This document shows positions 1 through 61,100 of a DNA stretch of 64,000 nt, one piece after another. Within the stretch, counting starts at the first letter, position 1. Each line of letters starts with the position of its first letter. A model generated the notes under the pieces. The model did no database searches and had not been told where the DNA came from. It saw nothing but the letters and a program-made list of their open reading frames with translations. The DNA is from Xestospongia bergquistia (Eukaryota > Porifera > Demospongiae > Haplosclerida > Petrosiidae), in the NCBI GenBank assembly GCA_963965975.1, contig OZ014411.1, positions 7,813,501 through 7,877,500 of the forward strand, read 5' to 3'. The translations under genes were made by a program, and so were the position numbers.

Positions 1-134
1 ACATTTTTGACCTAAATATTTTCGAGTACTAGGACTTGCTGATTGTACAATTGACAGCAACACCTCAGAGATCTCATTGCACAAATGAACACTTCTATTA
101 ATCATTATAATTAATCATTCTATTAATTATTATA

Positions 135-188
<54 letters not shown>

Positions 189-5670: not shown

Positions 5671-6890
5671 GATAAACTTTGTAACGACAAAATTTTGCTC
5701 GTTGATTATATAGTAGCAACGTGATTGTTTCTGAAGCTCCACCTATCTCAACGTTGTTTCATTATATTGTTATAGCTTATTTATTGACTCTAAAAGTTAA
5801 TAATATTCAACATACATCACACTGCATTCCACTGTCTTTTTATCTCTACATACTAAAGCGTAGTTAGAAGTTGGAGCAATTTTTGTATAATACCTATTCG
5901 TTTATACTGCATTCCAACATTTTATACATGTCAGAAACAAAGCATAATCTTAAGTACAAATTATACTAGTATTGAGAGGCATATTGATTTTTTCTGTTAA
6001 AGGTTCAGGCATTGTATATACTAATTTTTTTTAATTAAGAGTAAATCCTTTACTATACGTACTAAAGCAAACCATTGAATGACATGACTCATGTTCACAG
6101 ATTTTTGAGTGAATTGTATTGTTGAAACAACATGGGTGATTTTAGAGCTACTTCAATCATTTTGTAGCAGTAAATTGATTAAACAAACTAAGAGGCAAAA
6201 TAATTTTAATTCATTAACAACATATACCTAATATAGATAAGAGCCCTATCTTTAGTTAAAATTCTTTTATTCGTCTTTTTTTTCTACCTTTATAAATTAC
6301 CTGCACAATTACCTATGATCAGTTGATATAAAAGATTTAATTAAAATAATATATATATATATTTACTAAATGTTCACCAGACGAGACAACAAACTACAAG
6401 AATGTTAGAACATTAGATTTTTGTAGACATGCTAGACTATAACTCTAGCTATGTATACATATCTGTAATACATGAAATGAAATAAGGTGTTGTTCAATGA
6501 AAGAAAAACTAATAAGTCAACTATTCATTTGAATGTTTCTGTGTTACCATTTCAGTTTGTTTAAATATATTCTACTACAACAACAGAAACCTCAGTTAGG
6601 CTAACCAGGCTAAGTCTACACAAAATTATTATTTATCAAAAAATGATACTATGAAAATTTACTTTACTATAAGTAAAATGTTTTAAATCTTTTACAGTAC
6701 CGGTCTCTCTGACCTTAATGTTACATCGTAGGCATGATTTATGACTTTTAATACATAATGTAAATATTGTGAGTGAATGTATAATGTATAAGATAAGTTT
6801 AAGTTAGGTGATAATTAATTTAGAACTCTGTGAATAATATTATTCTAACTTTCTTATATAACAAATCAGCTTAGAAAATGAATAATACTT

Positions 6891-6893
<3 letters not shown>

Positions 6894-6965
<72 letters not shown>

Positions 6966-6975
6966 ATATATATAT
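6894..6975. repeat. (TA)n / (TATG)n microsatellite
   Basis: Pure TA run followed by TATG and TATT tetranucleotides. It has no coding content. Confidence 0.95.
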
Positions 6976-7653
6976 TTATTTATTTATTATAAAGTATTTT
7001 TCATCTACCTAGTAATGACTTTTTAGGAGCCAGCAATCAATTTGAAAGTTTAACAGTATTAAGAAATAAATTTCAAAACTATATAGTACAAGGTAACTAC
7101 CTAGTTTACGTATAATAATTTATTTCAAATAACAATTAACAATTGTCAGTATAAATTGAAGTATAAATTACAATATAGTGCTATATGGAATGACAATTAT
7201 TAACTATTTGGAAATTTATGAAATGCTTTTGGCATTTACATATTTATTATGTGTTCTTTGTTCTTGGTTAAACTTACTTGAAAACAATATACTTACCACT
7301 ACATGAATTTTGCTATGCTTAGCTAGTTCTAATTACATTTGCTAGTTATCATTGCTCTAGCCACCCAAAACACATGTTGCATAATAGTAATTGCCAAACC
7401 TTGTAGAATTGTAAAAACAATCACAGGGTATGCTTGCTTTCCAACCTTTGGTAATGAGATGTGATATAGATTTATAATGAGTTTACAATAAGTAATTTCC
7501 CAAAAATTTTGCGTCACAAACAAAGTATAATAATTTGATGGTTTTTTTTTAAATGTCAATGTATTGGAATGCTGTTGTAATTAATTTACAACAGCAAATT
7601 TGACGTAAAAGCAATGTGATTGTAGATGCAACTTTCATTTGTATGTGTGTGTG

Positions 7654-7677
7654 ACTGGTATAATTAATTATACCAGT
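7654..7677. repeat. 24-bp perfect palindrome
   Basis: A 12-bp arm ACTGGTATAATT is followed directly by its reverse complement. It sits in the intergenic flank, about 60 bp from a second near-perfect palindrome (7,571-7,595, arm GCTGTTGTAA). It could form a cruciform or be a transposon end; its function is unknown. Confidence 0.7.
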
Positions 7678-7680
7678 TAT

Positions 7681-11160: not shown

Positions 11161-11809
11161 CTTACAAGTTAGAAATTTCTAACTTGTGCATGAGTAAGCT
11201 TTAAAGCTTTTCCTTAGTCCTTAAGAGTTTGATTAGTTTGGACATGTTAGAAAGTGTAGAGCCCTTTTTGTTTGGCTCATGTCTAAAAGTTTCTCTAATG
11301 AAGCAATGCCTAAGTCTCCCTGCTTCTTTGCTGTATAAAAAAAGACACATATTGCTTTTTTTTACTGTTTTTCACTATTCGACAAATACACTTTCATGAG
11401 TCATGATATATTTGATAAGGTGTCATTCATGTGATATCTTTGTAGTTTAACAGTAGTTTGGAGGTAGTAATTTCTCTCCTGTGTTGTTTTTTGTTCTGAG
11501 TAGGAGGATTTGGGTGAAGGGTTTCAGAAGATGTTCTTCTTTGGACATCTGATTCTTGTAGTTGTCTTCTTCTTGGTCTCCTTTGCCAATGTGTTGTGGG
11601 ATGTTTGGGTTTTCATGTGGGTAAAGAGTTCTTCATCTATTAAATTGACCAAACATTTGCCATTGGTTTTCTACCAGGATTTTGTTAGTGAAAGGAGTAA
11701 TAATTTTATTGATTTAGTGATACACCCAAAAGGCATAGAGGTTCATTAGTGTTGTTATTAGAAGGCAAAGGATTATTGTGTGGAGTGGAGATTTTGGAGC
11801 TGTTACCGT
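11161..11809. other. Unassigned sequence between LINE and inverted RLE fragment
   Basis: Contains a 24-bp palindrome at about 11,172-11,195 (arm ACAAGTTAGAAA) and T/G-rich sequence. The 79-residue plus-strand ORF at 11,510-11,749 has no recognisable domain. The reverse strand reads Lys/Thr-rich with stops and could be decayed retrotransposon ORF1, but this is not supported well enough to call. Confidence 0.4.
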
Positions 11810-13020
11810 CCATTATGTTTAGCGGGTTTGAGGTACCTTGATTGTTGTCCTTGGATGGTGAAGGATCCTCAGAAGTGATCTGATTAGGTGGACAAGGGGG
11901 TTTGAGTTATTGGTGTTGAGTACACATTGAAAGAGATAAAGGGTATAAAGAGGACTGCATTAATGTTTACAGAACCTTTCTAACAATTATAACTTATGGT
12001 CTCCTCTGAAGGAGGGTTTGTTGGAGTTGGTTTATTGTAATGTCAGAAGGTGTGATAGTTCTTCCTTCTAAAGATAGAGTTTCGTGTTGAGATGGTAGAT
12101 CACATGAGGTAACTTGTGCCTCAGACAGCCAATTTGGGTTGTTTCTTAAAAAGATGATCTTGTGCTACCGACTTGTTTGGCATTTTTTGTGCCAATTATT
12201 TCAGCCAATTTGATGTTGGAGGAGGGACCAAGGTGTTGTAATAATGTTGGGCAGACCAAAGGTTTGATTGGATTATGATGCCTCCTGGTCTCTTTTGTCA
12301 GTGGCTTCAGCTGGATGTTGGGTTCTTATGTGTTGACTGAGACTTCTATTACAAATTCACATTGAGATGAACTAATTGTTAACCTGTCAGATCTGTGTAA
12401 TGTGGCTGTTCCTGTTCCAGGGGTCTTGTGAGATAAATCCCTCGATCACTTCTCAATAAATCAAGTGATTAAACTTGAAGGAACAGTTGAAAACCTTCTT
12501 GTCATTAAAATAGAAAGAGAAAGCTATACAAAATGACAAATATAACGTAGCTGTTGACAGCCTAACCCCCTATAGGAAAACCAGGAGGGAATAACAGTTA
12601 CATAACAAACAAATACAGATAAATTAAGTCTGAGTTTTAGAGGATAATTAATTATATGGTCAGGTGATGGCTCTTCCAGATTGTTTATTTGGTAACACAT
12701 AGCTTTCTAAACAATTTTGTGTAATTAGGACCAATCTTTAGTATTTTTAGTGTGCTTTTTATTTGACAGGTCCCATGACTCAAGCACTCCCACTTTTAAG
12801 CTGATATGCTGAGTAGTCATTGTGCCTTTTTTGTGGAATATACTTCCATTCCTACTTTGGACTCACCATCCACATTTTTATTGAATTGCAACGTATTGAT
12901 CTGCATATATGTCAGTTAAGAGTACACCAGGCATATTATATACAATGCCTGCAATATTTTAGGCTTCCGGATTATCATCATCGACCATATGGAATGTATT
13001 TAGACACAAAAAGTAATTAA
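11810..13020 (-). mobile_element. Inverted 5' part of the RLE non-LTR retrotransposon
   Basis: Reverse-complement match to 26,110-27,310. It covers the finger region (QHIR-type motif region about 12,300-12,350), the 83-bp CTGTTCC...GGAACAG segment (about 12,410-12,490) and the 5' leader with the TCATCGACCATATGG stretch (about 12,975). The copy carries stops and indels and lacks the reverse transcriptase and nuclease parts. Together with 26,110-27,310 it forms an inverted pair about 14 kb apart. Confidence 0.8.
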
Positions 13021-15935: not shown

Positions 15936-17767
15936 TTATTTTTCAGAAAGTGATTACAAAATAAAAATTTAAAAAGGCATCTAAACTGAATGGATGAACA
16001 TACTCCTTGTGTACTCGAGTACTTACTATAATTACGGTCAAGGGTGGTAATTTGGTGGAAGCCTAAAATATACAGACAGATATAATTAATGCACAGACAA
16101 GTAAGTAACAAAATTCAATAGATGTACTGATGGTGGAAAAACTAAACTCAAAGAAGGATGGCAGTAATATACTCCACAAAATAGCCAAATATAATGCACA
16201 ATTGTTGAGCAGAAGTTTGAGGCTTAGTCAAAAGGACGTCAGCTAGACAGAAACTTAGGAATGTGCTCACAACTTAGGAAAAATATAGATTTCATTCAAC
16301 TAGCAATGTACTGTAAGTATACCCATTTCTTGATTGGTAGAAGACAAGTCTGACTGCGTTAAGAATCAGGATCTTGTCAACTCTGCTTAGAACAGGCCCT
16401 TTTTGAATGTCATATCTGCAAGATGGACTACTCAGTCTACTCATAATGTTCTTATCATTTTCAGAGAGCACATTCATCTGAGAAAGTTGAAGTGACATTT
16501 AAGTGTGGTATTTGTCAGAAGAAATTCAACAACAAAACATTTATCTCTAATCATTGTATTGAAATTCATGGACCAGTTATGTTCTTCTATATGAATTTCT
16601 ACTCCTACATTAGAAGTCTCAGCCAACATATCAGAAATGAACATCCAGCTGAAACTTGTGAAAAAAGAGATCTAGAAGCATCATAATCCCAATCTAGATA
16701 CTGGTCTGTCTAGGAAGACTTTTTGTGTAGTGGCTCTGAGACAATAATATGGACCCTCCTCAAACATCCAATTAGCTGAAATGATTGGCACATAAAGTGT
16801 CAAACAAGTATATAAAAATACACAAACATCTGTTCCTAAGGGATAACCCAAATGACAAATGCACACTAGAGTGCAAAGTGGAACCTTAGTTGCTAGCTCA
16901 TGTATTAAAAGGATGCATAATGAGTGGTGGTCTGGAGGAATCTTGCCACATGCTATGTTATAGTTGAAAGATATTCTTGGCAAATTACAAAGATTACTCT
17001 TAGATTGCAAAAGAACTTGTGTACATTTTGTATGTGTTCATGAAGCAGAGTAGTCATAGTGGATGCAAGTTTGATAAACATCAAAAACTGCTAAACAAGT
17101 GTGTATACATAAGTGCATCCTCTTCAGAGACCAATTATATATATATCAACTCATTTCTGAGGCCATACAACTATTTCTTCAAAGTAAGTTACAAAGTATA
17201 TTAAAACTCAATAATAGATGATGTTAACATACACTAAATTAAGATGAAGCAATATTGCTTCTTTATATAAACACTCCAATATTCTTAGGAGAGAGAGTAT
17301 TTGCCAAGATAAATGTCATCTGGGTGTCCAAACTTGGTTACTCAGCCAACTGAGTACAAGATGTACATACTCCAAAGTTTAGGAAAAGGTATGGCTACTA
17401 AGTAACATGACAAATGTCACTGATTAAAAGAAACAAATTAGAGAAAAATATGCTAGTGCACTTAATAATAACATATAGTATACACGATTGTAAGATTTTT
17501 TAGTTAATTATCCCAGATTGTAAAAGTACACATCCTTATTGTGTATCATTTAATCCACATTTTAACACTGATCAATGCACTAGATAATGCACTAGATAAA
17601 AACTGTGACTAGTGATTATAGTCAGTGATGCTTTGTTGAAAGAGTGTCTGCATATTGCTTGTGGCTTCAATAATTTGGCAATAAGTCACAAACATTACTT
17701 TTTGGCTTCTTTATTCACTAGTTTCTCTTTGTGATAACTCAGGATTGGGCTGAACATTGTATTGATA
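15936..17767 (+). mobile_element. RLE non-LTR element fragment with C2H2 fingers, copy a
   Basis: Directly follows U2-like copy 1. In the frame of 16,492-16,686 there are two textbook C2H2 fingers: CHIC-x12-H-x4-H (interrupted by a TAA) and CGICQKKFNNKTFISNHCIEIH. They are followed by RSLSQHIRNEHPAETCEKRD. Cys2His2 fingers before a QHIR..HP motif are typical of the N-terminus of R2/NeSL-type retrotransposon proteins. Downstream the frame is broken by stops and no RT is present. 16,330-17,767 is repeated at 19,280-20,713. Confidence 0.75.
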
Positions 17768-18210
17768 TAACATATTGCTTTTTTATTTAGTGATAGATAT
17801 ATAACAGAATCTCTTACTAGCTATAAGTTGTTACTATAGTTTCATTTATAACATAATAAAGAGCTAGTATACACTGTATGTTAATTCTTCATTATAAGCA
17901 TTGGAAAATGTTTTACAGCAAGCAAGTACAAATTATAATGATATCAATATATTATAGTTATGTGCAAATAGTGAGAAAGGATGCATCCACCTATAGCTAT
18001 TTATTCGTCATTTATTTAGGTATTCATTTTTTATCTGTCCATTTATTAATCTATTATAATCTATTCAGTTTCAAAGCAACCACATAATAATAATATAATA
18101 ATAATATATAATATAGCGATAATAAAGAATTTGTCATGTAAAAAAGGAGACCACTACATGTAATAAAGTAACAGCAGCAGATTTAAGAAAATGTTCTACA
18201 AAATCATACA
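17768..18210. repeat. 3' flank of channel gene copy C
   Basis: AT-rich sequence downstream of the channel stop codon. It aligns with 34,260-34,610 (after copy B) and partly with 23,940-24,110. The 69-aa ORF at 17,878 lies in this repeated flank and has no recognised domain. Confidence 0.7.
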
Positions 18211-19279
18211 CTACTGTTTTTGTAACTTCTTTACAATTTTGACTATTTTGTTTAAGTGAATTTTTATTTGAACATCATGTGCCTCTTTCAACTTTTTACG
18301 TGTCATATTAACAGCGTCTGTCAATTTCTTAACAATACTTTCTTCCGACTTCTCTAAACATTGCAATAATTCTTGTTGATTTTCTTCAAATAATGCTTGT
18401 TGTGACTTTTGAGAAGTAGGTACAGCACCACCAAGAGTAATAGCTTTGTGAAGTGGAAAAAATTTAATGGACTTTTTAGTCTTTTTGAACTAAAAAAGGT
18501 ATATTAATATTAATAAGAGTTGATAACTATCCCATAAGAGATAACTACAAAATTACATGAAATTTTCATACACATATAGTACTTACACATTCGAAGACAT
18601 ATTTTTCTATAGCATTGTGATCATTTGGGTCCATTGAATGCAAATACAGGATGTAGTATATATAGTTGTACATGTTATGTTCATTTTGATAATGGTGATA
18701 GAATCCCTTTGAAAACATAGCAATAAACACAACACTTTGTTTGTTTTTACTTTTTCCTCAAAACTGTCACTGTCAATTCCACAAATAAAGCAATAATCTT
18801 TCTGGTCTTTGAGTGCTTTCTCCTAAAAATTTATAAACATAAATAGAATATTACTTATGAATATTTTAATACTTTTTCACTTCTAAGCTCAGAGAAACGA
18901 TCAACTAGAATAGCTACAATGACATTCATTCCAATAACAGTAACGATGACAAAGAATGACAAGTCAATGAAAGAACGCCAGCTGTATATGTGAAATGAAG
19001 GAGAATTCTGTCCTGTATAGCGCACTGGAATCGACTAAAAATTGAAGATAATACCTCCATTAAATTTGAATACAACTAAGACTATGCTATATAACGTATC
19101 TGTATAAGTTGAAAATAAGCAATCAGATTAAAATACTCACGGCTCCAAAGGTGCCCAAAAGCCCCTCTCTTATAACAGTGACATAGCATTCCCAAAGTGT
19201 ATTACAATATAGATTATCATCAGGATTGAAGAAGTTAGACATGAAAGCAAATGAAAGGACAGCATAAATGAGTACAATA
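18211..19279 (-). pseudogene. IP3R/RyR-type channel, copy C, 3' fragment (last exons only)
   Basis: Contains the last five exons of the channel gene: 19,141-19,279 (pore, truncated), 18,873-19,034 (S6), 18,751-18,822 (CFICGIDSDSF), 18,597-18,716 (HYQNEHNMYNYI) and 18,211-18,489 (C-terminal coiled coil, stop TAG at 18,211-18,213). All are open and splice sites match copy B. The pore exon is cut at about 19,279, where RLE element copy b begins, so no start or upstream exons exist. The pore loop reads REGLLGTFGA (copy B has REGLLDTFGA). It is an unexpressed fragment unless fused to something else. Confidence 0.9.
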
Positions 19280-20713
19280 GAAGACAAGTCTGATTGTGTT
19301 AAGAATCAGGATCTGGCCAACCCTTGCTTAGAACAGGCCTTTTTTGAATGTCATATCTGCAAGATAGACTACTCGGTCTACTCATAATGGTCCTATCATC
19401 TTCAGAGATCACGTTCATCTGAGAAAGTTGAAGTGACATTTAAGTGTGGTATTTGTCAGAATAAATTCAACAACAAAACATCTATCTCTAATCATTGTAT
19501 TGAAATTCATGGACCAGTTATGCTATTCTATATGAATTTCTATCCCAACTCTCAGCCAACATATCAGAAATGAACATCCAGCTGAAACTTGTGAAAAAAG
19601 AGTCCTAGAAACATCATAATCCGAATCTAGATATTGGTCTGTCCAGGAAGACTCTTTGTCTAGTTGGTTTGAGACAATATGGAGCCTCCTCAAACATCCA
19701 ATTAGCTGAGATGATTGGCACATAAAGTGACAAACAAGTATATAGGAATACACAAACATCTGTTCCAAAGGGATAACCCAAATTGGCTGATCGAAGCTAA
19801 GATAAATGCACATTACATGTCTAGAGTGCAAAGTGGAACCTTAGTTGTTACCTCATGTATTAAAAGGATGCATAATAAATACTGTTCTGGTGGAATCTTG
19901 CCACAATGTTATAGTTGAAAGATATTCTTGGCAAATTACAGAGATTGCTCTTGATTGCGAAAAAGAACTTGTGTACATTTTGTATGTGTTCGTGAAGCAG
20001 AGTAGTCATAGTGGATGCAAGTTTGATAAAAATCAAAAACTGCTAAACATACAACAAATGCATCTTTCTCAGAGACTAACTATATATATATCAACTCATT
20101 TCTGAGACCATACAACTATTTCTTCAAAGTAAGTGACAAAGTATATTAAAACTCAATAATAGATGATGTTAACACACAAAAAATTAAGATGAAGTAATAT
20201 TGCTTCCTTTATATATAGAGACTCCAATATTCTAGGAGAGAGTATATTTGCCAAGGTAAATATCATCTGGGTGTCCAAACTTGGTTACTCAGCCAACTGA
20301 GTACAAGATGTACATACTCCAAAGTTTAGGTATGGCTACTAAGGTAACATGACAAATGTCACTGATTAAAAGAAACAAATTAGAGGAAAATATACTAGTG
20401 CACTTAATGATAACATGTAATATACAAGATTGTATGATTTTTTAGTTAATTATCCCAGATTGTAAAAGTATACATCCTTATTGTGTATCATTTAATCCAC
20501 ATTTTAATACTGATCAATGCACTAGATAATGCACTAGATAAAAACTGTAACTAGTGGTTATAGTCAGTGATGCTTTGTTGAAAGAGTGTCTGCATATTGC
20601 TTGTGGCTTCAATAATTTGGCAATAAGCCACAAACATTACTTTTTGGCTTCTTTATTTATTAGTTTCTCTTTGTGGTAACTCAGGATTGGGCTGAACATT
20701 GTATTGATAAAAC
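19280..20713 (+). mobile_element. RLE non-LTR element fragment with C2H2 fingers, copy b
   Basis: Near-identical to 16,330-17,767, including the CGIC...HCIEIH finger, the QHI motif region and the long AT-rich tail. Its left edge coincides with the break in channel copy C, suggesting that the element took part in the rearrangement. A deletion relative to copy a shifts the frame near 19,545. No RT or nuclease is present. Confidence 0.8.
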
Positions 20714-20734
20714 TATGGTAACTAAGGCCTCAGT

Positions 20735-26056: not shown

Positions 26057-28262
26057 TTTCCCTTATAGGGGATAATTTTTCAGATAACAATGATAAATTT
26101 TTAAACAATATCTTAAAGTTAGATGAACCTACTCCATATGGTCGATGATGGTAATCTGGAAGCCCAAACTATTGTAGGCATTGCATATAATATGCTTAGT
26201 GTACTCTTAACTGACATATATGCAGATCAATACGTTGCAATTAAACAAAAATGTGGATTGTGGTAGAACGAGTCCAAACTAGGAATGGGAAGTATATTTC
26301 ACAAAATAGCCACAATCACTACTCAGCATATCAGCTTATGAGTGGGAGTGCTTGAGTCATGAGACCTGTCAAGTAAAAAGAACACTAAAAATACTAAAGA
26401 TTGGTCCTAATTACACCAAATTGTTTAAAAAGCTATGTGTTACCAAATAAACAAAATCTGGAAGAGCTATCAGCTGACCATACAATTAAGTATCCTCTAA
26501 AACTCAAGACTTATTTTATCTGTATTTGTTGGTTATGTATCTGTTATTCCCTCCTGGTTTTCCTATAGGGGGTTAGGCTGGCAACAGCTACATTATATTT
26601 TCCATTTTGTATAGCTTTCTCTTTCTATTTTAATGACAAGAAGGTTTTCAACTGTTCCTTCAAGTTTAATCACTTGATTTATTGAGAAGTGATCGAGGGA
26701 TTTATCTCACAAGACCCCTGTAACAGGAACAGCTGACAGCTTAACAATTAGTTCATCTCAATGCGAATTTGTAAGAGAAGTCTCAGTCAACACATAAGAA
26801 CCCAACATCCAGCTGAAGCCGCTGACAAAAGAGACCAGGAGGCATCATAATCCAATCAAACCTTTGGTCTGCCCAACAGCATTACAACACCTTGGTCCCT
26901 CCTCCAACATCAAATTGGCTGAAATAATTGGCACAAAAAATGCCAAACAAGTCGGTAGCACAAGATCATCTTTTTAAGAAACAACCCAAATTGGCTGTCT
27001 GAGGCACAAGTTACCTCATGTGATCTACCATCTCAACACGAAACTCTATCTTTAGAAGGAAGAACTATCACACCTTCTGACATTACAATAAACCAACTCC
27101 AACAAACCCTCCTTCAGAGGAGGCCATAAGTTATAATTGTTAGAAAGGTTCTGTAAACATTAATGCAGTCCTCTTTATACCCTTTATCTCTTTCAATGTA
27201 AACTCAACACCAATAACTCAAACCCCCTTGTCCACCTAATCAGATCACTTCTGGGGATCCTTCACCGTCCAAGGACAACAATCAAGGTACCTCAAACCCA
27301 CTAAACATAATGGACATTAACAGCTCTACCAAGACACAACCCATCAAGCAAGACTCTCCCAGATGCTACAAGCTAAGGACCAAGGCCGTGCTTTCCATCA
27401 TATTAGTAAATCTCCAGTCAGTAACGACTGGATTCAGGATGGGAAGTATTTGTCTTTCGTGGAATACAGGTTTGCCATCAGAGCACGTCTTAACATCTTA
27501 CCAACCAAGATGGTGGCAAGAAGGGCGGGGAAGTCTCAATTGGACACAAAATGTCGAAAGTGCAAACTCCAACCAGAAACTCTGAGACATATGCTAAACG
27601 CCTGTACACCAAATACTGGCCTAATGAGGGAAAGACACAATAAGATCTTGGAGAGACTGATAAAAGCCGTCCCCTATGATCTAGGGGACAAGTTTAAGGA
27701 GCCGTTGGGTTTTCCAGGTGACCTCAGACCGGATCTAGTAGTCCATAATCGTAAATCTGGTGAAGTTACCATAATAGATGTGACGATCCCTTTTGAGAGT
27801 GATAAGGACGCCTCTGATAAAGCTAGGAACGAGAAGGCTCAAAAATATTCTCCCCTGGTGACCTGGTACCAAGAGCAGGAGCACAATAAAAACGTCTACT
27901 ATGAGACTTTTGTAGTAGGTGCACTGGGATCTTGGGACCCTCTAAACAAAACCACCCTATCAAGACTAAAGATTGGTAACAGTTATGCGAAGCTCTTTAA
28001 GAAACTATGTGTTATTGACTCAATCAAAGGATCATACAGAATTTGGATCTCTAGCCGATAATCCAACTTAATATCCTGGAAAATTAAAACTTACCTTATA
28101 CAATATTCTATCATATTTTATTTATTTTGTTTTGTTTCCTATAACTTTTTTGTTTTTTTTTTCCTATTCCATCGAGGGGTTTGGCTGGCGACAGCCACAC
28201 TATACTTTGTTTTCCACTTTGTTTGTGTATAGCCCTGTCTTTATTGTATGAAGAATTGTTTA
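26057..28262 (+). mobile_element. RLE non-LTR retrotransposon, internally deleted, abutting U2 sequence
   Basis: Order on the plus strand: leader (26,057-26,530); an embedded 3'-end-like segment with GGGGGTTAGGCTGGCAACAG and the 83-bp U2-like CTGTTCC piece (26,560-26,736); an N-terminal finger tail (KRSLSQHIRTQHPAEAADKR at about 26,770); stop-rich sequence; the nuclease ORF (27,363-28,061); and a 3' UTR (28,062-28,262) with a GGCTGGCGACAGCCAC hairpin near 28,180. The 3' end runs straight into U2-like copy 3. RT is missing, so the copy cannot be autonomous. R2/NeSL-type RLE elements are known to be target-specific, and the Utopia lineage is known to target U2 genes; placement in that lineage is an inference. 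Confidence 0.75.
27363..28061 (+). pseudogene. C-terminal part of RLE retrotransposon protein (zinc finger + PD-(D/E)xK endonuclease)
   Basis: Open for 232 residues. Near residue 61 it has a CCHC-type finger (CRKCKLQPETLRHMLNACTP, followed by MRERHNKI). Near residue 125 comes the nuclease core LRPDLVVHNRKSGEVTIIDV then TIPFESD, with the PD and the Asp of the IIDV strand, and a conserved KAQKY lysine/tyrosine helix. In R2/NeSL-type elements this domain nicks the target DNA. The frame ends naturally (WISSR, stop). The RT that should precede the finger is absent and the upstream DNA is stop-rich, so this is the tail of a truncated element. The upstream part of the frame (FHHISKSPVSNDWIQDGKYL) may belong to the RT C-terminal region. 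Confidence 0.88.
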
Positions 28263-34253: not shown

Positions 34254-34610
34254 ATTATATATCAAAGTAAAGTACTAATGATATATCAATATGTTATCGT
34301 TATGTGCAAATAGTGAGGAAGATATTAAGGATGCATCCATCTATTTATTCGTCATTTACTTAGCCATTCATTTTTTATCTGTCCATTTTTTAATCTATTA
34401 TAATCTATTCAGTTTCAAAGCAATCATATATAGACAAAATTATATATATTATTTTATTTTTAAACAATATCATAGCTATAATAATAATAATAATATAATA
34501 ATAATATATAATATAGCAATAATAAAGAATTTGTCATGTAAAAAGGGAGACCACTACATGTAATAAAGTAACATCAGGAGGTTTTAAAAAACGTTCAACA
34601 AAATCATACA

Positions 34611-37600
34611 CTACTGTTTTTGCAACTTCTTTACAATTTTGACTATTTTGTTTAAGTGAATTTTTATTTGAACATCATGTGCCTCTTTCAACTTTTTACG
34701 TGTCATATTAACAGCATCTGTCAATTTCTTAACAATACTTTTTTCCGACTTCTCTAAACATGACAATAATTCTTGTTGATTTTCTTTAAATAATGCTTGC
34801 TGTGACTTTTGAGAAGTAGGTACAGCACCACCCAGAGTAATAGCTTTGTGAAGTGGAAAAAATTTAATGGACTTTTTAGTCTTTTTGAACTAAAAAAAGG
34901 TATATTAATATTAATTAGTGTTGATAACTATCCCATAAGAGATAACTACAAAATTACATGAAATTTTCATACACAAATAGTACTTACACATTCAAAGACA
35001 TATTTTTCTATAGCATTGTGATCATTTGGGTCCATTGAATGCAAATACAGGATGTAGTATATATAGTTGTACATGTTGTGTTCATTTTGATAATGGTGAT
35101 AGAATCCCTTTGAAAACATAGCAATAAACACAACACTTTGTTTGTTTTTACTTTTTCCTCAAAACTGTCACTGTCAATTCCACAAATAAAGCAATAATCT
35201 TTCTGGTCTTTGAGTGCTTTCTCCTAAAAATTTATAAACATAAATAGAATATTACTTATGAATATTTTAATACTTTTTCACTTCTAAGCTCAGAGAAACG
35301 ATCAACTAGAATAGCTACGATGACATTCATTCCAATAACAGTAACGATGACAAAGAATGACAAGTCAATGAAAGAACGCCAGCTGTATATGTGAAATGAA
35401 GGAGAATTCTGTCCTGTATAGCGCACTGGAATAGACTAAAAATTGAAGATAATACCTCCATTAAATTTGAATACAACTAAGACTATGCTATATAACGTAT
35501 CTGTATAAGTTGAAAGTAAGCAATCAGATTAAAATACTCACGGCTCCAAAGGTGTCCAAAAGCCCCTCTCTTATAACAGTGACATAGCATTCCCAGAGTG
35601 TATTACAATATAGATTATCATCAGGATTGAAGAAGTTAGACATGAAAGCAAATGAAAGGACAGCATAAATGAGTACAATACTTAGAATGAGCAATCCAAC
35701 AAATATCAGCTCTTTACCTAATAAAGGTTTATAAGCAGTGATTCTTACAACTTTGTATTATTACTGTACAGTGGTACACTTATCATTTACCTTTTCCACC
35801 AACTGCCTTTATAACATGTTGAATGACATCAACATTAATAAATATATATGGTAAGCATAAGCTATAGAAGTAACCAGATAATGTCAGGCCCAACAGTGAA
35901 CAGAAAGCAAACAACATCCTGTACATTGGATAGGTGCTAAAAAGATAAATGTCAAAGTATTGGCTGTCTTCTGGCCTTTCAAACCAAGCACATATTTGTT
36001 CACAGCACCATTTTAATAACTGCAGAACATTTAATGTCAATTTATGGGCCATTGTCTTTCTTTTTTGTTTTAATCTACATTGGTATATAGTTATATTTGT
36101 AGGATTGAACTACTTACAGATTCTCTTCAACTTTTTCAATGTGATTAATGCAGCGATTAAGTGCTCTATAATAATAAGACAATTACTAAAGCTTTTTTAT
36201 AATCAATATAGTCAAGAATGCAATAATTCTACTCTTATTGTTAAAACAAAGCACAAAACACTTGATTAATAAATTCTTAATGGAAACAAAAGTTCTGATA
36301 TAAGTATTACTTGATTAATTTTTGTAGAAATTCTAGTTCTTTAATGAATCTTAAGTTGTAACTATAAAAGTAAAAAAAATAAATGTATGAGAAACACTGA
36401 CTAATTTAACTATATAATATTCTCACAGCTTTTTTTGAATCCATGGAATTTTAAACTTGAAGTTAGGTAACTCCTTAACAAAGTATTCACACATCATCCA
36501 GACAGTGAAGAACAAATGAAGACCTCCAAATATATAATGGAGTTCTTTATACCATTGAGTCACTTCAGGATGTAGTATAAATGTGATACCATTGGTGATG
36601 TTATCTTGAGTTACGACATTACTGTAAAATAAAGGATACAGTATTCAATACTATTTTTATTTTCTTTCCTGTGTATGTAGACAATCATGATTATTGAAAT
36701 TGTTGGTCATTTATTAAAATAGTTCTGCTGTATAATATAAATTTATATTGTAGATAAGAACATATTTAATTTTTTACAGTATTATATAAAATATTATTAT
36801 AATATACAGAGTATTTGACAGTAAATTTTATCACTCAAATTTATCAATATTTTTTCTTTCTTGTTATTTTACCTTATAACTTCATGTAAACAGAGTCATT
36901 GAATTGTTTTGTAAGTATATGTAGATGTCAAAGTCAATATAACTTATTTATACCAAAGTTTACAAACTTTTTGTATCAGAAGAGTCAATTTAATCAATTC
37001 AGTTATTACCTTTGTCTTGGATAGAAATTGTTGGTCACAATATGAGGGAAAAAAACAAGAAACCAGGATTCTTGAGATCTGTAAAATTAATATAGTATTA
37101 AACAGATAAATATTTCAAACTATGCTATGAATATAGGTAAAGAAATAATTATGACTGAAACAAGACTAGCATAATGCTCATAATGTAACTATCATTTTAA
37201 AATAAATTTTGGATAGTTTTTAATAATTTTAAAGACAGTTAACTTACACAGATGGAACTTTAAGTATGGCAAGAAGGAATACATTTAGTAATATTGTCAA
37301 GAATGACAAAATCCAATGACGAAGGTTTCTGTAGAATTATATTATAAATACAAAGTTATGATTGTAGTACTTACGGTGCAAAAAGCAGTACTTCACCAAT
37401 GACCTTTTTTTTAAGTTTCACCTGTGTATGTGAGAAATGAGAACATAACCTATGCTATACAAAGTAACAAGTCTAGTGCTACAAATGTTTATTTCAAGTT
37501 CTTACAGTGTGATCATATTTTTTTAATTTAGAACCAGACCACTCTAGGAGGTCTTTCAATTTGCTCTCAGGAGAGTCACGTTTAATTTCATTTTGAATCT

Positions 37601-40600
37601 TTTCTTTCTCATCTTCTGTAAATTCATACTATAAATGTGAACAAAAATGAGTTACTACTGTTTCCTACTTTGTTGTAAGTTGTTGTATTTTAAAACTAAC
37701 TTACAGTTTCTTTAAAGGGAAAATAGACACGAGAAAGTACTTGGTTCTCATAATTAAGCTCATAATTTACTTCAATACTCCGTGTATTTGAAGAAACATA
37801 ACTCCACACTTCATCATCATTTTTATCAACTTTTAGTAATAAAATAATTTAAAACAAACTTATAATTCATCATACCATGATCATCAAGTCTTTTGAGTAC
37901 ATAATAAGCTCTAAACAGTGCTCGATGAACATCTTTATTTCTAAAACACTTAGAAAAAATGTTGTGATATATAATCAGTATTGGTATTGTGATTTTATGC
38001 ATTTCTTGCATGACAATATCAGATATAGGTTCTTACAGTTATGTATAGAATATGGTACAAGAAAATACAATAAATACATAGAACATAATGTATGGGAGGT
38101 TGCAAGGTTGCAATAGCTAATTTACATAAAAATATATCATTATTTATTTTTTTAGAATGGGTTGCCCAACTATAATAAATTTACTTGTTCATATAGCTCT
38201 TTTGTTATAATTTCCTTTAGTTTTGACTTGTGAAGATCCCTTGCAATAATACCACGTATTTGTTTGTGCTCTTTATCTGTTTCTTCTAGCAACACTTCTA
38301 ATAATTCAATAACTTTACATTTCATTGCCAATATTTCAGCTTTATTATTCTACAAAAATTAGAAAGTTGATTACAAAATTTATGAAAATTTATGAAATCA
38401 AAATATTTCTAGATTAAAATAAACATTATATGCAGGACGTTTTAATACATACATAGGAAATAGTATAACTTTCATTAAAACAGCATGCACAGAAAATATG
38501 AGATATAGATCAGAGATACAAGTGCTGTAGAGACTTAAATAATTAAAGTTGTAACTTGTCAGTACAAAGGCAGTTAGCAACATGATCAAGTATAACCTTT
38601 TTACAAACAATATACATCAAAGGTGTACTAGGTACATGTGTGTGAGTGTGTCAAACTCTTTTTTAAAGTAAAGACAAAGATACATGAATTGATAAATAGC
38701 CATAACAACAGTAATATAACTTTAATAAATGTAATAGAACCTGCATATCTGTTTATTCCTAGTGTAATATTATTTAGTATACATCTAGTCAGATGTAGCT
38801 GAGTGAGACTCCTATGCATATGTTAAAATTACATAGATGCATACACAACTAAAAGTACATTTGGATTTTTAATGTAACTATACTCCTTGATATTATTTTA
38901 TAGTCATCATGATTGCATATTATCATACCTCACTTTTATCTACATCACAATCAGTGGAATATTCAAGGACATTGTTAATAAAATCCAGAACCTGATTGTT
39001 AATGACTTCGATCTGATTTTTATGATTACCAGCACACATCTCAATAAGTGCCTAAATTAAACTTTATAACTATATTGTTCAATATGACTATCATAATATA
39101 CAACTAGCTATAGAAGTACCTGGATTCCATCCTTTGTAAGTAAGATGGTTTCTGAGCTAAGACTTGACGTTTGGAATAGGACTGTAATTGCTTCAACAAT
39201 ATTGATTTGCTAATATCATATAATATAAATTTATAATGCAAAAAATATCTAAAGATTGTCTTGTTAACAAGTAACAGCAATATTAATAAGAGCTTGATAG
39301 AACACTCTTATTCAAATAAGCATATTTAAAAACTAAAATGAGTGACCAGTCATGATTATTGTTGTAGTGTTCATTGCAATGATGAATCTTATAAACTATA
39401 AGTAGTTTTTATTTGTGCAATACTAATAATTATGAGCATGTCTATGACAAAATATACAAGCATGTGTGATTAGCTATGACCAGCTTACCTCAGTTGTAGA
39501 GTGTTCTTGATATCTTAAGAGATTTTGCATATCTCTATGTTGTCCATCACATAATTTAGCTATTAGTTTCAAAACAACTCTGACTTGTTCTGTAGAATTT
39601 GCTAGGCAAGGTTTCTATAGAAGATTAATTGGTATGCACAGTCTTTAAAAAAAACAATAAATTACCAACTGATTAGATGGTAATGAAAAAGTTGAATGTT
39701 TTTCATCATTAAGATCCTGTTGATCATTTGAGCTCTTCTTCTCATCTTCTTGAGCTGATGCCTCACTTGAAGTTGACAATGTCTCAACTTCATCTACAAC
39801 AATTTTCACTATTGCTACTGAGCTGTCTATATCTTCATATTCTTTTGAACTTTTGTCTAATCTGATGAAGTGTTTGCATTACCTAATCAAATAATACTCA
39901 CTACTTTACCTTATGTCATAAGTTGGAGATGGTGTAGCTAATTTAATTGTCTTAAGCATTCTGTCCAATAATGTTATGAGTTCCTCTTTCATAATGCTCT
40001 TCTGAATATCGCATTTGTCATTAGTAAGTAGAACACATAGATATGCCATGATTTGAACTGCATAATAATCATCAGAGTTCTGAAGAAGCAAAAGAGCCTA
40101 CACAAATAAAAAAGAAGCAAAAAAGTACAGGCATGATATTTTAAACAAAATAGATATATCAACTTGCTAGTTGGTGATTTAATACAATTTACCTTAGCAA
40201 GACATTGTTCATGACATTGTGAATCATCACTAAAATAATCATTTTAGCATGTAAAAAAGAAAGTGAATGAATACCTTAAAATTACATAATGAAACAAAAT
40301 TTGTAGTATTGTTAATGAGTATTTAAATTGTCGTTGACTGCTTATCTGACACCAACATTTTCTGTTTAAAGCACTTATAATAGAAAGATAACATAGTTAT
40401 ACAAGTGTAATTGTAGTCACCTAAATACTTGAGTCAAAACATCCCAATGTGCATCCACAATGTTTATTTCACCAGTATCTCTAATAATAAAGCAGACAAA
40501 TAGTTTAAACATAACATGTGAAGTTCTTACAACTTTTTTTGAAATTCCTTGAAGAATGTTATAGCTAAGTTTTGGTGATATTCTGCTTTCATTTCTATAC

Positions 40601-48500: not shown

Positions 48501-51500
48501 CTTGCTAACATTGGCATACATATTATAACAAATGGAGGTTTAGCTGCATAATATATCAAAAATACTTATAACAATGAAACCATTCATAACCTAAATTAAC
48601 TTCAGCAAAATTTACCTCATCTTTAGTTTGATCATAATAGACAAGATAAAAGTAATACTCTTTCTTCTTTGATTCATCAAATGGTAGTAACTAAAAAAAT
48701 TATACCACTTACATTATACTGTAAATGATGGTATGTACCTCTACAGTAGTGACTTCTTTGTTTACTTTCAAATACTTTTCAGATACAATATGTTTGATAT
48801 ACACCTTTACTCTTGGTAAAATTGAACTATCTATAGGGCAAACAAAATGCTATCACAAAGTGAATCCAATATATGTCTTTTTACAATATTCTATATAATA
48901 ATAATCTAAAATGGAAGACAAACCTAAAAGAGTAACGTACTTAATGTTATTTACTATATTGTGAAACATTAAAATTATGTATAATATTATTACTATATTC
49001 AGATGCAGATTCAGCTGCCTCTATTTGCCACCAACAGTTACAAGAGACAGATTGCTTCTGTTCCAATTGCATTCCATTTGTCTTTTGTTTAAGTCCAACT
49101 GGAATAAATAATTCACTGTAACCGACACTGAAATTTGTTTGTGCATTGTCAGCTTCAACATAACAATATTATATTAGAATTAACCTTCACTAAACTGTGA
49201 TAAAACTTCATCAGATCCTACAACTAGCCCATTTATCTCTACATTCTGTATCCAGACTATACTTCCATCCTGTTCAAATAGAATTTGAGTTCAATTAGTA
49301 TTAGAATTAATGCTGACCATGATGTCTAAGGTTTTCAACATACTAATATCAGACTCCAATTTTAACTGATACTCAGAACTTATAGTTGCCATTTCTAACT
49401 GAAATCTATAACCAAAAAATAAGTGTGATAATGAAAAAATTTGAAAGAATGTGCATGCAATATATCTAAATTTTATTGATATTATAGTTATACTCTTATT
49501 CATTACTATCTACACAGAAATACCTGTTGACTGATTTATCAAAAAAACACAAAACATAGAAGCCTTTTTTAATGATAGATTCCAGCTTAACATTATCATT
49601 CCTACACACCTATATTAAAAGACAAATATAGTTACCAATAACTTCAATTAATCGGCCTACATTTTCTCCACACTTTTTTATTTGAGAAACAATCTTAAAT
49701 AGAGTAGAATAGTCTTCACCTGACTTCTGTCAGTATAATATTAGTATAATATTCAATGTAAAATAATAGACATTATTTTTTTATCAGCTTACAGTTAATT
49801 CCAAGGTATTTTCATTACCAGCTGACAAGTATAATTTTGATGCAACATGACGAAGCTATAAAAAATAATCAATTGCATGCCTTTTGTAAAAATTTTACCA
49901 TACTTTAATCTTTTGCCCATACATTATCTCATATCGATCACTCTAAATATAATAATATAACAACAAACATAATTTTTGTTATTTTTGAGTAGAATGATAT
50001 GTATCTTCTAAAGTTACTATGAAGCAAGTATTACAATTAACAGGACTATAATTACATTGATAATTATATTGTTAATTTTAAAAATAGAGCAATTGAAAAT
50101 AGGTTTTACTTCTTACCTCCAATTTAAACAGAGGAGAAATGTCACTGAAAAAGAATAAAAGTAATAATTAATTTTTGATTGAAAATTAATCAAAATTGAT
50201 TATTATATATTTTCAAACTTCTCAAAACAACATAATAATCTAAACTAAGATGGCCTGGCATGCCAGGTTGAAAAACCAAATTGTACTAATGCATGTTTAT
50301 GGTCTTGTGTAAACCTAGCCACTTCTGTTTCTTTGAGGAAGGGCTAATTATATAATTCTTTTTCTTAATGTTAATGGGATGTTAGGGGCTATATATAAGT
50401 GTCTGCTTTATTGATAGCACAGTATGTAACCTTATTATCAAAGCAGTTTATGAGCTTTTAAAATTTTGCATATAAAACTAGCAAAAAGTTCAATTTTGAA
50501 GCATGTAAAATTGCAGTATGCTTTATATTTTTAAAATAAACTCTTTAAAAAGTCCATATATTAATACTTTGTCAATAGCCATTACAAGTATATATGTTTG
50601 TGCATAAAACATTGTCCTCAATGCAGCTTTTGATGAACAAACATTGAAAATTTACTATAAAAAGCTAAGCAGTAACCTAAATTATATTAATGAATGAATA
50701 GATAATAAAACAATAATATTATAATAATTGTTGCTGACACAAATAGAACTTACTCAAAATTTGAAGAGTTTTCAGGTAAAATTTGAAATGAAGAAACTAG
50801 ATTAAGAAACATATAACGTGTCTATTTTTACCATTGGTGCAGTTTGTGAGCATCTAATCAGTATTTACATTTCTGATATATTTCTGATATATTAAGTCAC
50901 TTACAATAGCTAGATCTATTATAGCTTAGGTTGTTTGAAGGTATGGTAACTTGCCACTTTGAAAAACTGTAACATAAAAGTATTGCAAAGAATGATAATC
51001 ACATGACATATTCCATGGCATGCAGGGCCCAAGTCCAAACTTTACACACATGGCTTTATAACTGGCTTGTTAATAATATATTTTTTATCTTTTAATTATT
51101 ACATTTTGTAGTTTGTTCATTTGTACATTTAGAAATTGTAAAGGAGCTGTTACTATTAAAACAATGCACAAGTCAACTAATATTAAAAACTGTTGGTCTT
51201 TTTATGAGCCATACATTTACTATACATGTAAACTCAGGCAAACAAAATATTTCAGGTATGAATAGCCTTAAAAATTGTATTCTGCTGCATAGTATATTTG
51301 TAATTCGTCCATGCATTCAAATGTTGCTATGGCCATATATTGTTAAATATGTGCGTTACAACAAGTAGCTAATTTTTGGTTTTACAGTGTAATGGCTTGA
51401 AGCCTTGGTGCTGTTTCTTTGATTCAAATATTTTGCTGCTTCTCATCATTGTTTTTATGCCATCTTTTGTTTTTAAATTAATCAGGCAGACTTTGTTATT

Positions 51501-56668: not shown

Positions 56669-58180
56669 TGTTTCCCAGATCAAGAGGGGTGGAAAACAAC
56701 AGTTGAGAAAGAGATTAATGTTTTGTAAAAAACATTTAGAACGCTTGGAAGTAAGAAATAATTCATTGCCATTAAATATGTTGTAGATTTCAATTGCCAT
56801 AAATCTCTAATTAAAAGAACAATGAGTAATGTACATAAATAAAAACAAAAACCTTAACATTAGGGGAGCTAAAGATTAGGGAAGTATCTAAAATAACTAG
56901 CAGCCATATATTCATTGGAAACTGTAACATCATGATGATTGCATACTTTTTAAAGTAGATGATATATGAAATCTCACTTATAATGAACTAATTAATTTTA
57001 TTTGATAATTAGAAAGCATATCTTCTATTAGCTATGTAGCTTTTTCATGTTTCCAATGTTTTTTACACTAACTAAAATATGATTCCTTTACTAAGTTGAC
57101 TTTGTCAAGTGCAAACATACATTTACAACAATCTCTATTTTTTTAATCTTAATATTTCAATCACCCTCCTATTTCCAGTCAATAATTATCTTCATTATTA
57201 TACACAATTTTTTTCTAAATTCATAATTTTACATTCATATTATCACACATACCAGTAATTTATCATTAAAGTATGGCCTTTCCTGCCAGCCATAGCATAA
57301 AGAATCAGAGTAACATCTGTAAAACTATGTCCTTAATATTTGTATACATATTTACTTTTTTTCCAGTTCGTCAGTTAGAATATGTTTCTACATGTTTACG
57401 GTATTCCTTGCAAGTTGTTATCATAGCAGATAGATGCTGGTAACTTATATGGTGATCAGCCCTTTCTTTGTTAATGTTAAAGCATGTAGCTTGTTTGTAG
57501 ATCACTTAGTTAATTTATAGCTACTACATCAAAGATTAACTAAATATGATAAGTACATTGGAAATGAAAACAGTGTGATGTAAATTTAGTTTATATCAAA
57601 TAATTTTGCTACATACATACAATCTGTATAACCATATATAAAAATCAAAAACCATAATCATGGATCAGTATAATCAGTTGTTCATGATGATAGGTATTAC
57701 TCGTAATATATATATGTTATATATGTCTTTACTTATTTTTAATATATATCGGCTACTAAAACAAAGATTAAAGACCATACCCCAGTTTATTTTGCATTTG
57801 AATTTTACTCAAAATAGTCCCGTGTATGTATTTGTCTTTTTCATGTTGTTTAGATAAAATGACAAATAAATTGATACTGTTGTCTTTAGCATTAATTACA
57901 TGTTTTGTCATGAATATATTTACTAACACCTTGATATTTTATATAAGGCACAGTAGTTGCATGCAGACACAACTTTCAAATCAATTGTTTATCAAAGATC
58001 AAGGAGCAGAAATCTGTGAGTGACTTTATTATTATAGCCATAGAGATTCATTTATGTTTTGTCATGAAGAGTAATAGATTTATTTTGCAAGCATTATATT
58101 TCTAGAGTGCAGATATTTGAAGGTTTTAGATCAATTTATTAATGCAAATAATTGTTTCTTGTAGGATATCATTATAAAGA
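56669..58180. other. Intergenic and probable 5' UTR of the 1,246-aa gene
   Basis: No conserved gene is seen. 57,859-58,023 reads a small hydrophobic peptide (MTNKLILLSLALITCFVMNI) ending just after a donor-like GAAATCT|GTGAGT (58,015). An acceptor-like CTTGTAG at 58,164 lies 18 bp before the main ATG. A spliced 5' leader with an upstream ORF is possible; joining the two does not keep the frame. Confidence 0.4.
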
Positions 58181-61100
58181 ATGGCATCATTTCAGAGTAT
58201 GATATTATTTATACAAGTTATTGCTCTTTTTAACTATATTAAACCACTTTCTACTCATATTGTCCAAATTAATACAAGTAATCAACTTTGGTTCTGGTTA
58301 TGCAGTGATAATATACTGCTGCAAAATAACTTGACATTTCATTTGACACAAAGTAACTATATACTTCACAACATGACCTTCTGTGTTATTGAAAATGTCA
58401 GTAATGTTGCATTAAAAGGAGTGGGATCTGATGGGAAATCATCAATTAAATGTCAATCACAACAAGACTCAACCACTGGATTTGGCTTTGTCAATATATC
58501 CAGTGTTACTTTAGAAAACTTAGAGTTTACTGGATGTGGTGCAACAATAACAAATACAGCTGTGGCATTCTTTAATGATACACACCCATATTTAGGATAT
58601 AAACAGAAAGCATTACTGGTATTTAATCACTGCCTCAAGATAACAATACAACACATTAACATCTTCAATTATATTGGATATGCTATCTTCATGCTAAATC
58701 CTCTTAACTCATCATTAATGAATGATGTTATAGTCACAGCAAGAAGTGGTATTATGTACTGTAATGATTCTGTTACATTTGCTTGTTCTGGTAGTGGTAT
58801 ATTTGTAATGTTTAAAGACACTCAACAAACCTATCCTGATATGGCACCAGTTAACGTTATATTGTTACAGTCTAACCTTCGATCCAACTTCAACATTATA
58901 CCAAATGTACCTCCCTTGACTCTTATAGGACATAACATATGTAGTCTTCCTGTGGTTGGTGCTGGTGGTCTAACAGTACTATTTAATCAATCATTTCTTG
59001 CAAAATTTTCTAGTCAAAGTACAGACATTGGTTATGACTTAAGTAATGGTGGGGCAGTAGCAGGAAATATATTAGTGATATTTTATAATGGTATGGTCAA
59101 CTCTCAACTGTCACTGACAGATACTGATATATTTAGTGGAATACTTTTTCCTTCAACTAATCAAATTGGTGGTGCATGTCTTACTATTATCTCAACTTTG
59201 TGTCAACTATGTCCTTTTAGCAACACAAAAGAATTGCCTGTTTGGACACCAATTTTTTTAAACAACGTCCATATAGTAGGTTGTGGTTCTGGATCTAATA
59301 AACCAACAGAGTTTTCTCGTGTCAAATATGGAGGAGGATTTTATCTAAATATTTTTGAATTTTGTGGAGCTAGATCAATTGTCTTGCTACTTAAAAGAGT
59401 GCAATACAGAAAAAACTATGCTTACAAATCTGGATCTGGTCTTTATGCTTTTGTAACAAACTCTGTCTTAAGAGACAATGATATATCTATAATAATAGAA
59501 GATGTTGAAATAAGATCAAGTCGTCAAGGTGCTGCTAGCTATACACTCTATTCTACAGTTGCAGGTTTAACATTAATTAATTGGAACAATGTAACATTTA
59601 GAGGTAACAGCTATTTTACTGAAAATGACTCCCCAATGATTGCAGCATATAATAGTAATATACACATGACAGGACAACTATTGTTTAGAAAGAATACTGG
59701 TACCATGGGAGCTGCCATACAACTATTTTCTTCATTCCTTATTCTTCACGAACCACTGCTGGCTACATTCCTTAACAATGTTGCTTTATTATATGGTGGA
59801 GCTATATATGCTGATAATGTAGTGATTCCTGGTCATCGTAGATGTGCAATACAAATTAACACCAACAAAACTGACCTACACAAAATACACATCATATTGA
59901 AATTTAAAGGGAACTTAGCAGGACTTGCAGGAAACAATATTTATGCTACTCCTCTCTACAACTGTTCCTTTTTCTACCCACAACATGATAAGTTTGAATT
60001 AGTCCACTTTGACTGGAAATCAATTGCAAATTTTGATACACCAAACTCTCTTAACAATGGACTGGAACCAATGTCTTCTCAAGCAGTCAAAATATGCTCT
60101 TGTCATCTTTACCCCAATACAAATAAAGTCGTCAAACACTGCTCACAATTGTATGCTATTCCTAATATTATTAACACTTATGCTGGTAAGACAGTAACCA
60201 TGTCATTTTGTGCTGTTGATGATTCTGATACCATTGTTTACTCTCCTGCTGTTCTTTTTATCAAAAATGATCATAATAACCAAAATAAATTGTCAGAAAA
60301 TGTATTGTATTTAAATCAAGGACAAACACTTGTACCTTTGTCAGGAAGTAACTGTACTCAAATCCATTACAATGTCCTTAGTAAACTAGATGAACTCAAA
60401 CATGGAAGGCTTAACATTGCAACACCAGGTAGTCCACCATCTTGGTCAGCTGAACTTTATGTACATCCTTGTCCAATGGGATTTATGTTAAAAGGAGATG
60501 AGTGTGTATGTGATAGTTTCATTGCTGACATGTCACCCTCTACAAAATGTAATATTACTACAACAACTATTACAATATATTCTGGTCAATGGTTGGGTCA
60601 TATTTTATTTGGCAATAAAAGTACATTGGGATTTGCGTCAGTTTGTCCTCCTGGTAACTGTAAAACTAACACTCTACTGTTTAATGTGACAGATCCCTTT
60701 TCTCTTTGCGAGTCCAGAAAGGTGGGCATTCTCTGTTCACAATGTCAACATAATATGAGTGTTGTATTTGGTAGCACAGAATGTAGACCATGCTCTGATA
60801 TGTGGTTAATTACGATAGTGGGATATGCTTTATTTGGTCTGCTACTGGTAGCAATAATGCTTGCACTACCTCTCACTATATCAGAAGGACCATTAGCTGG
60901 TATCATAATAGCTATGAATATCACCTCTGTTTCAACTATAGACTATTTGGATAGTAACAATTGGTTTGTGTACACTGCTAGAGTCTTTGTTTCCCTCATG
61001 AATCTTAATCTAGGTTTTCCGATGTGTTTGTACAACGGAATGACACCAACTGTTAAAACTGCTATACAATTTGTTTATCCAGTGTACTTGTGGGTTTTGG

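Follow-up and report, generated by a model that had tools for sequence, protein, structure and literature searches.

An IP3R/RyR-type gene with a replaced selectivity filter

The window, a 64,000-nucleotide stretch of the Xestospongia bergquistia genome (C1:7813501-7877500), carries on its minus strand one long gene related to the IP3 receptors (IP3R) and ryanodine receptors (RyR), here called copy B, together with two partial copies of it (A and C). As modelled, the entire copy B gene spans 34614-56636 and encodes 2462 amino acids (aa). This is a home-made model without RNA support, built from splice sites, codon use and alignment to copy A; its exons above ~51.3 kb are doubtful and its 5′ end is provisional.

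The pore of copy B is encoded by two exons. The upstream exon (35542-35717) encodes S5, the pore helix and the first half of the selectivity filter and ends in CNTLWECYVTVIREGLLDTFGA; its terminal residues are REGLLDTFGA, and counterparts of it are present in paralogue loci. A phase-0 GT-AG intron of 106 bp (35436-35541) then divides the filter as TFGA/SIPV (here and below, a slash between filter halves marks the intron). The downstream exon (35274-35435) contributes the second filter half, the luminal loop and S6 (SIPVRYTGQN...VAILVDRFSELRSEK); it begins with SIPVRYTGQN and finishes with SELRSEK. In a phmmer comparison with the PDB, the spliced C-terminal 511 aa matched ITPR2 best (E = 1.1e-34; RyR1, E = 4.9e-27), with the copy B filter aligned opposite GGGVGD, and Pfam recognised Ion_trans in the model (E = 4.2e-10). 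Two published accounts describe GGGxGD as a filter conserved in the IP3R and RyR of metazoans (PMC3213138, PMC7399828). The original prediction placed TFGASI between the pore helix and S6 of copy B, where IP3R and RyR have GGGVGD or GGGIGD, and both exons bear this out. At the level of sequence, positions 35717-35274 are confirmed as an IP3R/RyR-type S5, pore helix and S6 with a replaced filter.

Beyond S6, copy B has the C-terminal zinc finger of IP3 receptors, CFICG...H-x4-H. This finger, of the IP3R/RyR C-terminal type, is divided between an exon with its first half (CFICG; 35152-35223) and an exon with its second half (H-x4-H, EHNMYNYIYYIL; 34988-35107). The final coding exon (34614-34889) encodes a charged C-terminal tail and is followed by the stop codon at 34613-34611. 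On the other side of the pore, eight model exons at 35791-37628 cover the S1-S4 region and a linker, and four stretches within them have 15 to 29 matches apiece in paralogue loci. Exons at 38929-39614 encode an RIH_assoc domain (PF08454, E = 5.5e-13; 49.1 bits against a cut-off of 28.5). The N-terminal exons (48616-50821) show a weak Ins145_P3_rec match (24.0 bits against a cut-off of 23) and a MIR match below its cut-off. The Pfam scan covered five pieces amounting to most of the model, from roughly residue 190 onward less a few exons, and in these pieces the RyR-specific domains RyR and SPRY were not found. The N-terminal piece has no significant match in the PDB (best E = 1.9, to RyR2). Because an exon-by-exon genome search with the N-terminal 216 aa retrieved only copies A and B (E ≤ 0.01), the ligand-side N-terminus of the family appears to diverge fast.

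Elsewhere in the window, a single open frame of 1247 aa on the plus strand (58178-61921) has several hydrophobic stretches toward its end and no Pfam family over cut-off (DUF1137, 18.8 bits against 25). An inverted repeat of ~1.2 kb (11797-12993 and 26133-27326, 93.8% identity) lies beside a plus-strand open frame of 246 aa (27321-28061), which we take to be retroelement-like and which has no Pfam match at E = 0.01.

Partial copies of the gene in the window

Copy C (18214-19279, minus strand) is a truncated duplicate that holds only the last five exons of copy B, and its DNA is 97.7% identical to 34484-35680. Its pore exons (19279-19141 and 19034-18873) read LLGTFGA/SIPVRYTGQN, in agreement with the earlier claim that copy C keeps the same filter form with one residue changed; that change, D to G, immediately precedes the filter hexamer. 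Three introns differ from those of copy B by 1 of 106 bp, 0 of 50 and 0 of 44, and the fourth is off by one base in length. Across 256 homologous codons there are 5 nonsynonymous and 9 synonymous differences (dN = 0.008, dS = 0.062). Because copy C is a young fragment, 97.7% identical to the 3′ part of copy B and limited to its last five exons, we ruled it out as independent evidence. Copy C ends at 19279, at the start of a repeat; the two units of this direct repeat (16338-17775 and 19278-20716) are 90% identical, and its edge coincides with the break in copy C.

Copy A (1-9255, minus strand, with ~9.6 kb more to the left of the window) is a gene body in which the pore exons are missing. Its alignment to copy B breaks off at 37567, and the 30 kb beyond the left edge of the window yielded no pore exon. 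Over ~1,700 aligned codons, dN/dS between copies A and B is 0.42 to 0.46, a value biased low because the choice of frame was guided by the same alignment. Both splice dinucleotides are intact in copy A at just 44 of the 56 model exons, some of which may be model faults. At the doubtful model exon 46541-46462, copy A has one stop and two frame-disturbed codons, and it has another frame-disturbed codon at model exon 37829-37705. An inverted repeat of 829 bp (8290-9117 and 9593-10421, 99.0% identity) lies partly within the 5′ part of copy A and partly next to it.

A genome-wide family of altered-filter loci

The pore search of the genome (146 Mb, 21 contigs) gave 90 matches, which resolved into at least 34 family loci (copies B and C counted in), an IP3R gene at C9:3366603 and an RyR-type gene at C7:7905716. 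A match on C14 (E = 0.47) was taken as noise. None of the 34 family loci has a GGGxGD filter. In 31 of them a GT-AG intron divides the filter at the same site as in copy B or at most one or two codons off; the exceptions are L033, L053 and L054, and the boundaries of 10 loci were set by hand. Besides TFGA/SIPV, the family filters read SFGG/SIPV, TFGG/SVPV, TFGA/TIPT, TLGA/TLPL, TLGT/TLPL, TLGA/NLPL, TIGI/KLPL, GFGA/IPTN, GFRA/IPTN, SLRT/IPTN, GFKN/IPVN, TLGT/ALPM, TLGN/GISI, NLGL/LVPF, NIGL/LVPL, SLGT/AILF and TLG/AISL. Two damaged loci have SLGA/TLPL (L044) and ILGV/AIPV (L056), and the filters of L053 and L054 are not cleanly readable.

The region from S5 through the zinc finger is intact in 26 of the 34 loci, where intactness means open pore exons, a GT-AG filter intron and both zinc-finger exons free of stops, with other splice sites outside the criteria. 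The remaining eight (L024, L033, L038, L040, L044, L053, L054 and L056) are truncated, have stops or a splice site that is lost or unclear, or yielded no second zinc-finger exon within 1.1 kb. The zinc finger is stop-free in most family loci. In the 12 kb upstream of the pore, 25 of the 34 loci have a same-strand RIH_assoc-like match, at a distance of 1.8 to 10.3 kb, and these are therefore long genes rather than pore fragments. Two further RIH_assoc-like matches (C5:4361418-4361741 and C1:18857691-18857903) have no family pore nearby and are perhaps more diverged or pore-less members.

In a midpoint-rooted tree of 161 columns, the family is split from IP3R plus RyR with full support (100/100). 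The tree comprised 26 family loci, the C9 and C7 genes, one ITPR2 and one RyR piece, the eight damaged loci being left out; the RyR piece covers just 40% of the columns, and it, C7, C9 and L049 have long branches. These comparisons show the predicted family products to form a third IP3R/RyR-type clade in the genome, apart from IP3R and RyR. The clade, as predicted, retains S5, pore helix, S6 and zinc finger, with the RIH_assoc-like stretch in most loci, and has GGGxGD replaced by an intron-split x-[F/L]-G-x/x-[I/L/V]-P. Among open PMC papers we found no report recognisable as concerning this channel family.

The C9 gene is an ordinary IP3R, with GGGIGD within one exon and a better match to IP3R (3.8e-31) than to RyR (1e-15), and it alone was recovered by a six-frame genome search with PF08709. 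The C7 gene matches RyR (8.7e-23) better than IP3R (1.7e-14) and falls with RyR in the tree, not with the family. Its filter exon finishes with GGGI plus one base and the next exon reads CTGATG, so that the filter, as far as readable, would splice to GGGIAD rather than GGGIGD. The C7 filter intron (L057 5320-5640, C7:7905319-7905639) lies one base from the family intron position; that the two are one intron displaced by a single base would be no more than a guess.

Given that an intron falls exactly within the filter, GGGxGD might be restored by a hidden exon or by splicing at another site, so that the replacement would be a misreading of the splicing. No GGG(V/I/L/M/F/A)(G/A) or GG(V/I/L)GD was found in any frame of the family loci scanned or of the window. 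Among the 59 scanned sequences, a GGG core occurs only in L011 (the IP3R gene, GGGIGD) and L057 (the RyR-type gene). Genome-wide, GGG[VILMF]GD has 16 hits (13 in a backward control), and the sole one at a pore locus is the C9 IP3R. A GGGxGD that is itself split by an intron would evade both motif scans, but the exon ends of copy B read TFGA and SIPV. We therefore rejected a hidden GGGxGD exon for the family loci scanned and within the reach of the genome-wide patterns. The splicing explanation is largely refuted by these searches, and we give it hardly any weight. A GGGMAD match at C1:19472826 is on the opposite strand to the nearest pore locus and ~40 kb away from it.

Constraint on the filter

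In the pore exons, dN/dS between copy B and its nearest full-pore relative, L025, is 0.09 (111 codons, dS = 0.87), and in the other groups of loci it is 0.19 (7 loci), 0.24 (2 loci), 0.26 (6 loci), 0.29 (4 loci) and 0.39 (6 loci); the groups include the damaged L033 and L044, and six loci are ungrouped. Over the pore helix and filter alone (32 codons), copy B and L025 differ by 3 nonsynonymous and 6 synonymous changes. The family is thus mostly under purifying selection. The original prediction had regarded the change as retained rather than as decay, because copies B and C are both open and spliced alike. Retention is supported by the 34 loci without a GGG filter, the filter intron in 31 of them, pore-exon dN/dS of 0.09 to 0.39 and a zinc finger free of stops in most loci, whereas copy C does not serve as its basis.

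Among 17 chosen representatives, the filter has Gly at position 3 in 16, I, L or V at position 6 (the place of the Asp) in all 17 and Pro at position 7 in 14. Neither D nor E occurs in any of the seven filter columns of these representatives, and the column directly before the hexamer has D or E in nine of them. The set contains just one of the five loci with Lys or Arg at position 3; over the 31 loci with listed codons, that position is Gly in 25, Arg in 2 and Lys in 3, and is unclear in L053. Mean entropy rises from the pore helix (0.90 bits) through S6 (0.94), S5 (1.17) and the filter (1.40) to the post-filter loop (1.94). Because the filter lies between the pore helix, S6 and S5 on one side and the post-filter loop on the other, it appears constrained and not freely drifting. 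Specifically, the predicted filter is constrained at three positions, while positions 4 and 5 vary freely. Hand counts of filter codon changes gave 5 synonymous and 2 nonsynonymous in the SFGG clade (L033 omitted), and 2 synonymous and 5 nonsynonymous in the TLGx clade (L044 omitted), where four of the five nonsynonymous changes are at positions 4 and 5. The two clades point in opposite directions, and the nonsynonymous excess in the TLGx clade, like the Arg or Lys that five loci have at the Gly position, complicates a reading of plain constraint.

Arg or Lys replaces the central Gly in one subgroup, with GFKN/IPVN in L046-L048, GFRA in L040 and SLRT in L041. In L038, which is otherwise alike to this subgroup, the codon is GGA (Gly), and the codons GGA, AGA and AAA form a one-base series (Gly, Arg, Lys). 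The loci of this series (L038, L040, L041 and L046-L048) sit at C2:10.1-10.4 Mb. L031 has Lys at filter position 5. After S6, L046-L048 have IVRF, and most other loci have (I/V)D(R/S)F.

Possible functions of the altered pore

We propose that the family members are still channels with changed, probably poorly Ca-selective conduction, a reading that we hold at about even strength. Their proteins would assemble as tetrameric endomembrane channels gated, as in IP3R and RyR, by the large cytosolic domain. The new filter would still shape the pore loop around the retained central Gly, and the Asp ring would be lost with the change of Asp to I, L or V. Lacking that ring, the pore would conduct chiefly monovalents, and its preference for Ca2+ would be slight or absent. 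IP3 is probably not the gating ligand, at least not in its ordinary role, since the N-terminus of the family is strongly diverged. The usual Ca2+ release would stay with the single ordinary IP3R and the RyR-type gene.

A default reading of the Asp loss leads elsewhere. We take D2550 of IP3R1 to be the filter Asp; a gap-free match puts the filter Asp at residue 2551 of chain 3jav_A, within one residue of D2550. The D2550A mutation is reported to block Ca2+ conduction by rat IP3R1 (PMC10406432, PMC6700175), and because it does so, the default reading is a dead pore. Also counting against a conducting pore are the free variation at filter positions 4 and 5, the Arg or Lys at the central Gly position of one subgroup and the Lys at position 5 of L031. 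The same papers report that D2550A IP3R1 still supports store-operated Ca2+ entry (PMC10406432) and ER-mitochondria contacts (PMC6700175); a non-conducting scaffold and a changed pore are thus both live readings. Family members could accordingly be non-conducting scaffolds or dominant subunits, which would fold and assemble alone or with true IP3R without conducting, and would serve at contact sites or modulate the ordinary receptor. Such a role is in keeping with the loss of the filter Asp at all 34 loci and is possible above all for the subgroup with Lys or Arg in its filter. But a filter that transports nothing should drift, and here Gly3, I/L/V6 and Pro7 are conserved over deep divergence. 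Nor need loss of the Asp always be fatal: some oomycete ITPR candidates with GGGLG(G/S) are described, from sequence, as potential cation channels (PMC7399828). A dominant subunit alone would moreover make 30-odd copies needless. We regard this explanation as a serious one that is nevertheless somewhat doubtful. Altered conduction, a scaffold and a dominant regulator are indistinguishable from sequence alone; we favour altered conduction over the other two because the replacement motif is conserved along with S6 and the zinc finger.

If the family were instead one of relaxing pseudogenes, in which the filter was lost as copies decayed, then the eight damaged loci, the truncation of copies A and C, and the imperfect splice dinucleotides, stop and three frame-disturbed codons of copy A would be expected. 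The pore-exon dN/dS values, well under 1, the ratio over the shared body of copies A and B (also under 1, though biased low) and the 26 loci that are apparently intact from S5 to the zinc finger make such decay improbable. The filters GFKN/IPVN, GFRA and SLRT and the stepwise codon series could suggest anion or otherwise reversed selectivity, at least in the Lys/Arg subgroup. This would be confined to one subgroup, whose dN/dS (0.39) exceeds that of each of the other five groups, and for two loci of the codon series, L038 and L040, no second zinc-finger exon was found within 1.1 kb; we consider it very unlikely.

A broader form of the altered-conduction reading can be offered only tentatively. 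The family could be a third class of animal-type giant intracellular channel, next to IP3R and RyR, in which an IP3R-type scaffold convergently gained a TRP-like hydrophobic-Gly-x filter and then radiated into 30-odd genes with several selectivities and non-IP3 ligands. The filter was perhaps changed by way of the intron inside it, the variants being neutral, hydrophobic and even Lys or Arg. With 26 apparently intact pore regions that lack GGGxGD, in a genome whose IP3R is normal and which has an RyR-type gene as well, the family amounts to a natural mutagenesis series. It shows what the IP3R/RyR pore scaffold tolerates, and makes it possible to ask directly if large proteins of the IP3R type also serve functions independent of Ca2+ conduction.

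Comparison with known channels

Copy B shares with IP3 receptors the pore helix, S6, the CFICG...H-x4-H zinc finger and RIH_assoc, and it has a weak match to Ins145_P3_rec. The family differs from them in lacking GGGxGD, in having its filter split by an intron (the filter of the C9 IP3R lies in one exon) and in falling outside IP3R in the tree, and the N-terminus of copy B is hardly recognisable. Ryanodine receptors belong to the same superfamily as copy B, and the RyR-type gene of this genome also has a filter intron. In contrast, the copy B model has ~2,460 aa, compared with ~5,000 in several PDB RyRs, its filter is not GGGIGD, and the pieces scanned contain no RyR-specific domain.

The filters of TRP-type channels resemble those of many family members in having [F/L]-G-x followed closely by I-P; the TRPM filter is FGQIP. 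The PKD2 filter is LGD (PMC7399828). There is no TRP chain among the best 60 of 88 PDB matches to the family pore profile, and on this ground kinship with TRPM was rejected. The likeness to TRP filters, if real, would be local and convergent.

Among the oomycete proteins covered in the same paper, some ITPR candidates are without the filter Asp (GGGLG(G/S)) but, unlike the family, keep GGG (PMC7399828). In the oomycete PKDRR A proteins, as described there, a hydrophobic-Gly-Ala filter (LGA) goes together with R domains like those of RyR and ITPR; the PKDRR channel domain is polycystin-like, whereas that of the family is of the IP3R/RyR type (PMC7399828). Kinship with these polycystin-like proteins is unsupported both by phmmer of the copy B C-terminus and by the search with the family pore profile.

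Lineage-specific expansions are also reported in a survey that compares ER calcium genes and whose main text mentions neither Amphimedon nor sponge (PMC7016017). As described, many IP3R/RyR relatives in the expanded set of Paramecium have a partial filter match or none, and group VI of its calcium-release channels (CRC I-VI) has practically no similarity to the filter (PMC3213138). Those channels belong to a ciliate, and their other groups keep either GGG(V/I)GD or a GG(V/I)G core, intact or varied (PMC3213138), whereas none of the family filters listed above has GG(V/I)G, a comparison made with the CRC by description only. What the two systems have in common, on the same description, is that IP3R/RyR relatives with changed filters have multiplied within one lineage (PMC3213138).
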